NCBI GenBank assembly: GCA_022786605.1
Contig: JALFWW010000019.1
Location: 78,779 to 142,778 of the forward strand
Direction: 5' to 3'
Length of the DNA stretch: 64,000 bases
DNA from: Clostridia bacterium
Lineage (GTDB): Bacteria; Bacillota; Clostridia; Lachnospirales; Anaerotignaceae
The position numbers were made by a program, and so were the translations under genes. Shown piece after piece: positions 39,092 to 60,527 of the stretch (its first letter is position 1; each line of letters starts with the position of its first letter). Under the pieces are notes generated by a model. The model searched no databases and was not told the origin of the DNA. It worked only from the letters and a program-made list of their open reading frames with translations.

Positions 39092-39164
39092 TTGAAATCC
39101 TCCTTAAAATTTCCATAAAAAAATACCGTCTACATCTGCGGATACAAATTCCCCCAGATGCGGG

Positions 39165-39233
39165 AAACTCATAGCGCGGTTGTTTACGGTAACCGGTAGA
39201 AACATCCAACCTATTATGGACCTATATGGGTTT
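39165..39233 (-). ncRNA. purine riboswitch aptamer, guanine-type (C at the specificity position)
   Basis: Minus strand AAACCCAUAUAGGUCCAUAAUAGGUUGGAUGUUUCUACCGGUUACCGUAAACAACCGCGCUAUGAGUUU: P1, P2, invariant GUUUCUACC, P3 with CCGUAAA loop, J3/1 ..CUAUG. Confidence 0.9.
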
Positions 39234-39247
39234 CATTTCCGTTAAGG

Positions 39248-39277
39248 AGTATACGCCGAAAGGACTGGTGTTGTCAA
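39248..39277 (-). promoter_or_regulatory. promoter of the riboswitch-guaD transcript
   Basis: TTGACA (39272-39277) - 18 bp - TATACT (39248-39253), about 15 bp before P1. Confidence 0.75.
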
Positions 39278-59877: not shown

Positions 59878-60078
59878 CAAAAAAGAAGCTAGATGTACAT
59901 ATCTTCTCATCACGCTGTGTATCAGACCACATTCGCCGTCTTATGTTTGTTTCTCTCCCCTTGAAACATCAGAATGGAACTTCCCTCAGCCTCCCTTTTA
60001 TATTCCCGCAGGACTCTCCTCTGCTGTGCCTTTCTCCCGGATTTCTCTCTCGCTTTTCTGTTTTTAGGCATAAAAAAA

Positions 60079-60157
60079 TGGGAGTTACAGGGCTCAACTG
60101 CTTCCTGTGTCCTCTTGCACGTTCGTGCATGACTCTCTCCAGCTGGACCTTTCTCCC
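60079..60157 (-). pseudogene. tRNA-Val-like sequence (unit 1)
   Basis: GGGAGAAAGGTCCAGCTGGAGAGAGTCATGCACGAACGTGCAAGAGGACACAGGAAGCAGTTGAGCCCTGTAACTCCCA vs tRNA-Val. Confidence 0.7.
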
Positions 60158-60193
60158 TTGTTTTGTTTCTTTCTGTTTTTGGACATAAAAAAA

Positions 60194-60267
60194 TGGGAGT
60201 TACTGCGCTCAACCTTGTGTCCTCTTGCACGTTCGTGCATGACTCTCCACAGCTGGGTCTTTCTCCC
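60194..60267 (-). pseudogene. tRNA-Val-like sequence (unit 2, diverged, 74 nt)
   Basis: GGGAGAAAGACCCAGCTGTGGAGAGTCATGCACGAACGTGCAAGAGGACACAAGGTTGAGCGCAGTAACTCCCA. Confidence 0.65.
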
Positions 60268-60307
60268 GGTTTTCTCTCTCGCTTTTCTGTTTTTGGACAT
60301 AAAAAAA

Positions 60308-60386
60308 TGGGAGTTACAGGGCTCAACTGCTTCCTGTGTCCTCTTGCACGTTCGTGCATGACTCTCTCCAGCTGGACCTTTCTCCC
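60308..60386 (-). pseudogene. tRNA-Val-like sequence (unit 3, identical to unit 1)
   Basis: Same 79 nt as unit 1; the full 115-bp units 60079-60193 and 60308-60422 are identical by eye. Confidence 0.7.
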
Positions 60387-60422
60387 TTGTTTTGTTTCTT
60401 TCTGTTTTTGGACATAAAAAAA

Positions 60423-60495
60423 TGGGAGTTACAGGGCTCGAACCTGTGACCCTCTGCTTGTAAGGCAGATGCTCTCCCAGCTGAGCTAAACTCCC
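60423..60495 (-). tRNA. tRNA-Val(TAC)
   Basis: GGGAGTTTAGCTCAGCTGGGAGAGCATCTGCCTTACAAGCAGAGGGTCACAGGTTCGAGCCCTGTAACTCCCA. Confidence 0.96.
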
Positions 60496-60527
60496 ATGTT
60501 TTAACTATAAAATTTTCTCTCAAAACC

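Follow-up and report, generated by a model that had tools for sequence, protein, structure and literature searches.

The genome from which the sequence analysed here was taken, G000, is by inference that of an Anaerotignum species, a gut bacterium, and it probably carries a lineage-specific tRNA-linked repeat array, consisting of tandem, degenerate, non-coding copies of tRNA-Val that are located inside the tRNA-Met-Glu-Val transcription unit and have no trans-acting job.

Organization of the array

The whole stretch of DNA that was analysed (64,000 nucleotides, hereafter the window) contains the array on its minus strand at positions 60071-60415, where three full units (115, 114 and 115 bp) precede a decayed fourth. 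The array lies directly downstream of tRNA-Val(TAC), the last of three tRNA genes (Met, Glu, Val). The features of the locus, in minus-strand order, are as follows.

60701..60729, minus strand: promoter of the tRNA operon, TTGACA-17-TATAAT (12 of 12 consensus matches)
60611..60684, minus strand: tRNA-Met(CAT), found by ARAGORN and Rfam
60527..60600, minus strand: tRNA-Glu(CTC), found by ARAGORN and Rfam
60423..60495, minus strand: tRNA-Val(TAC), apparent parent of the units, found by ARAGORN and Rfam; CCA is not encoded, and T7 is next
60301..60415, minus strand: unit 1, 115 bp; pseudo-tRNA part 60386-60308, with 17 nt of the tRNA 3' end and an apparently tRNA-derived 5' part
60187..60300, minus strand: unit 2, 114 bp; pseudo-tRNA part 60267-60194, with 10 nt of the tRNA 3' end
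60072..60186, minus strand: unit 3, 115 bp, the same as unit 1; pseudo-tRNA part 60157-60079, with 17 nt of the tRNA 3' end
59975..60071, minus strand: unit 4, decayed; retains GGGAGAAAGGCACAGC and GGAGAGTC, tRNA 3' end lost
59879..59908, minus strand: weak hairpin and T run, at the same place as the strong array-ending terminator of G001 and G004

Tandem Repeats Finder delimits the repeat at 60008-60439 (period 115, 3.7 copies) and also reports a super-period of 229 bp at 94%; this output and a unit-by-unit reading both confirm the tandem array of ~115-bp tRNA-Val-like units proposed in a preliminary description of this DNA. Units 1 and 3 are identical over all 115 bp. The copies of the tRNA-Val 3' end terminate at 60308, 60194 and 60079, and identity to the trailer extends past them for 24, 125 and 10 nt in units 1, 2 and 3, respectively. 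The identical 17-nt 3' end that had been ascribed to the units is a property of units 1 and 3 but not of unit 2, in which 10 nt are identical, or of unit 4, in which it is lost; similarly, ATTTTTTTATG, said to follow every unit, does not follow the last one. Elsewhere in the window, a purine riboswitch aptamer was identified above the Rfam gathering score (39152-39249, minus strand).

Derivation of the units from tRNA-Val

The resemblance of the units to tRNA-Val extends beyond the shared 3' end. With the 3' end removed, the 5' parts of the window units have 34-37 identities to tRNA-Val (z = 5.8-5.9), a result as good as which was obtained with none of 500 dinucleotide shuffles, so that the whole-length alignment claimed in the preliminary description is upheld. 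Every unit tested from four species likewise aligns through its 5' part with tRNA-Val (p <= 0.016 for each in the shuffle test). Because their 5' parts match tRNA-Val far above shuffles, the units are, judged by their sequence, degenerate copies of the entire tRNA-Val and not of its 3' end alone. The D-stem is absent from the units and a short hairpin replaces the anticodon arm, with TGCACGAACGTGCA in that position, as had been described. No unit was recognised by ARAGORN or by the Rfam tRNA models, even with E values as high as 10 allowed. The acceptor strands of the units are GGGAG..CTCCC or CTCTC in G000, G001 and G004, and GGAAG..CTTCC in G002, the same as in G002's own tRNA; these differences could be due either to compensatory change or to copying from the host tRNA.

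Distribution, age and turnover

Arrays are found at the same Met-Glu-Val locus in four congeners: G001 (four units), G004 (three units), G002 (three units) and G006 (one unit). A second tRNA-Val also has an array behind it in G002 (seven units) and G006 (two to three units), and no array is present at tRNA-Val in G003 or G005. The sister genus (G015) has a single diverged unit behind tRNA-Val (L009), which ends in CATTCCATTTTTTATGTTCAAA and is followed by a terminator-like hairpin. A pattern-based scan covering 85,488 species placed Val arrays in Anaerotignum only, and a scan of the family was concordant, although the exact pattern missed the array of G001, so that further diverged arrays could also go undetected. 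The matches of the genome-wide pattern scan outside Anaerotignum were rejected as chance, there being no tRNAs at those places. Copy-number dynamics, the absence of which would have counted against the preliminary description, are apparent between species, which vary in copy number, in unit length and in the presence of the array.

In a tree of six neighbouring proteins (supports 80-100), the array-less G003 and G005 group with G000, G001 and G004, and G002 and G006 fall outside, so that the array-less species are placed between two array clades. The units of both array clades have in common several features that are not those of the tRNA (GAAAG for GTTTAG, AGAGT and AGGACAC). Given this placement and these common changes, the array most likely arose before the genus did, with later loss from G003 and G005.

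Units are more similar to each other within a species than between species, and the tRNA 3' end is best preserved in the units proximal to the tRNA (seven arrays; permutation p = 0.001, the compared segments being hand-chosen). This gradient from proximal to distal units, taken with the similarity within species, suggests that units are born beside the tRNA and decay outwards. Unequal recombination or slippage, acting between the 3' end of the tRNA and the first unit, would generate each new copy, and the existing copies would decay while being displaced outward. A decaying tandem duplication, one of the explanations offered in the preliminary description, is thus favoured by the homology of whole units to the tRNA as well as by the similarity within species and the decay gradient.

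Transcription, constraint and possible function

The promoter of the tRNA operon is a perfect sigma-70-type consensus, as are those located upstream in G001, G004 and G002. The sole strong terminator of G001 and of G004 is placed past the array (-13.5 and -11.8 kcal/mol, respectively), and the hairpin at the corresponding place in the window is weak (-3.7 kcal/mol). G002 has a strong terminator after its second array, and no strong terminator was called at its Met-Glu-Val locus. With a consensus promoter upstream and terminators after the array in relatives, the array is likely to be co-transcribed with tRNA-Met-Glu-Val, as the preliminary description had supposed. The operon would be read through the array to the terminator, and each unit, with the tRNA 3' strand and U run, may be cut from the precursor in the manner of a trailer.

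Up to GGACAC, the core of the unit shows 87-89% identity among clade-A species and 72-74% between clades, compared with 77-83% and 56-59%, respectively, at four-fold sites of neighbouring genes. This mild excess of conservation may be a sign that selection, and not tolerance alone, acts on the core. In folding, clade-A units surpass their shuffles (z -1.8 to -3.4), but clade-C units do no better than theirs.

The conservation of the core and the folding of clade-A units would be in keeping with functional small RNAs released from the precursor transcript, consisting of an acceptor-like stem and an inner hairpin, and acting in trans as sponges or decoys whose supply tracks tRNA synthesis. The stem of the inner hairpin is preserved and its loop is variable, and a precedent exists in the tRNA 3' spacer that acts as a sponge in E. 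coli (PMC8166272). Such a role, akin to the tRNA-like small RNAs suggested in the preliminary description, is nevertheless judged unlikely: pair counting gave no covariation support for the Val units (in a MAFFT alignment that shifted the acceptor columns of the G002 units), the clade-C units fold like shuffles, Hfq was undetected in eight genomes and CsrA in the array-bearing Anaerotignum genomes, and two congeners live without the array. Most likely, the array does nothing in trans and is retained since maturation of tRNA-Val is undisturbed by it; folding or processing would then account for the mild constraint seen in the core.

Repeats and a structured element behind tRNA-fMet and tRNA-Ser genes

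Five genomes, G000 (on another contig), G002, G003, G005 and G006, also have units behind tRNA-fMet in which the tRNA 3' end is repeated, and such units follow tRNA-Ser(GCT) in further genomes. Most of these units have terminator hairpins, with structured sequence in between. A structured element of ~120 nt at G000:C18:66478-66596 (L080, L150) was observed also at L121, L149, L151, L153, L155, L156 and L171; many of its copies adjoin tRNA-fMet or tRNA-Ser(GCT), and often a copy of the 3' end of that tRNA and a terminator are next to it. The element covaries strongly: pairing holds in 93.5% of the cells of its 31 pairs, 20 of which are changed on both sides, and none of 500 shuffles attained this. 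No match to the element was obtained in Rfam (E up to 1), and among the genomes searched it is almost wholly restricted to this family; G066 has up to 16 matches to it, mostly weak. It looks like an undescribed family of RNAs or mobile elements. The model of the element (R1) has no match in the window or in the Val arrays, and its kinship with the Val units is thus unsupported.

A second type of unit was observed behind tRNA-fMet (L120, L089, L112, L080) in G000, G002, G003 and G006. It is closed by the fMet 3' end, includes an inner hairpin in some species (for example, CCCCATGCACATGTGCATGGGG in G003), and is followed by a terminator at some loci. A search for a tandem fMet pattern with a spacing of 65-95 nt returned no matches, probably because the spacing of these units is different.

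A more general proposition, that tRNA genes of this family have given rise time and again to tandem units at the 3' end and that the Val units and the fMet/Ser units, the latter with the covarying element, are a class of Hfq/CsrA-independent small RNAs produced by the tRNA processing machinery, is considered rather improbable.

Other interpretations of the array

If the units were tandem weak intrinsic terminators, each with a stem closed by the tRNA 3' strand and followed by a U run, they would provide graded termination behind the tRNA operon. T runs of 6-7 are indeed present after nearly all units and a few distal units of G002 are terminator-like by score, but no minus-strand terminator was called within the window array, and the arrays of G001 and G004 are almost devoid of called terminators, the real terminator lying past the array, which makes this interpretation very unlikely. 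Even less can be said for recurrent site-specific integration that left scars at the 3' end of the tRNA, an origin that the preliminary description had raised in view of the 17-nt identical 3' ends that resemble att cores: the units are apparently tRNA-derived along their length, a genome search located the tRNA-Val 3' end elsewhere in other tRNA genes only, with no stray copies, and no integrase gene was recognised when the nearby ORFs were read by eye, so that such an origin is highly improbable. The possibility that the units code for a small basic protein, as tpr does in the E. coli tyrT repeat, can practically be dismissed, for although Lys/Arg-rich frames open from an ATG behind the T run, indels between units and between species are not divisible by three, the frame shifts from unit to unit, and the ATG is missing in units 3 and 4 of G001 and in other species.

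Comparison with tRNA-linked repeats of Escherichia coli

The array, interpreted as degenerate tRNA-Val copies with no trans-acting job, has its nearest known counterpart, by anatomy only, in the tRNA-linked repeat (TLR) of E. coli (tyrT/rttR, RtT RNA). TLRs have been known since 1978, and their origin and function are unsettled (PMC8144298). Like the Val array, the TLRs of E. coli tyrT and tyrV are tandem repeats in a tRNA operon, in each of which the 3' end of the preceding tRNA recurs (PMC8144298); the tyrV locus has three perfect 19-nt copies with a 178-bp period (computed here). The location of TLRs immediately downstream of a tRNA or rRNA gene in an operon is also that of the Val array. 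An identical 3' end of 18-19 bp is characteristic of TLRs, compared with 17 nt (plus an identical T-run trailer), 10 nt and 17 nt in the first three Val units, and none in the fourth, which has lost it. TLRs number one to five copies per locus, within which range the window falls (three units plus one decayed), whereas G002 reaches seven. That the copy number of TLRs can vary is indicated by a 122-bp VNTR in rtT RNA, listed in a paper that compares Salmonella Paratyphi A and Typhi (PMC2658671).

There are also differences. No match to RtT or any other Rfam family was found within the Val array, and no sequence homology to the E. coli TLRs was detected. The Val units are shorter than E. coli TLR units, and their 5' parts resemble their own tRNA much more strongly (z 5.8-5.9) than does that of the E. 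coli TLR unit (z 2.7). The E. coli tyrT repeat has a 10-nt segment antisense to the tRNA 3' end (p = 0.003); closure of the units by such an antisense copy was dropped as a candidate for the window units (p = 0.95). At the settings used, no 3'-end copy was seen for E. coli rrfB or proL.

Two further systems of E. coli bear comparison. RrA, RrB and RrF, the TLRs of rRNA operons, resemble the Val units in repeating the 3' end of the stable RNA gene that precedes them (PMC8144298), but a terminator lies on either side of them, and in vitro they bind Hfq and CsrA, neither of which was detected in the array-bearing Anaerotignum genomes. Hfq was found in none of eight genomes (G000-G006 and G015), all array carriers included, and CsrA was found only in G003, which has no Val array, and G015, which has a single unit. 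The genome of the window is 89% complete, and those of G004 (about 100%), G006 (97%) and G001 (95%) agree with it in having no match to either protein. Since neither was found in the array-bearing Anaerotignum genomes, Hfq/CsrA binding, the sole activity reported for TLRs, evidently cannot apply to the Val arrays. The 3'ETS-leuZ sponge, like the Val array, is a non-tRNA portion of a tRNA precursor transcript (PMC8166272), but it is one spacer, whereas the Val array consists of tandem tRNA copies, for which any target is putative.

Thus, the TLR phenomenon now appears in a lineage of Clostridia without detected Hfq or CsrA, the two RNA-binding proteins linked to the TLRs of E. coli, and the full-length tRNA copies of related species, ranging from fresh to decayed, make the origin of such repeats testable.
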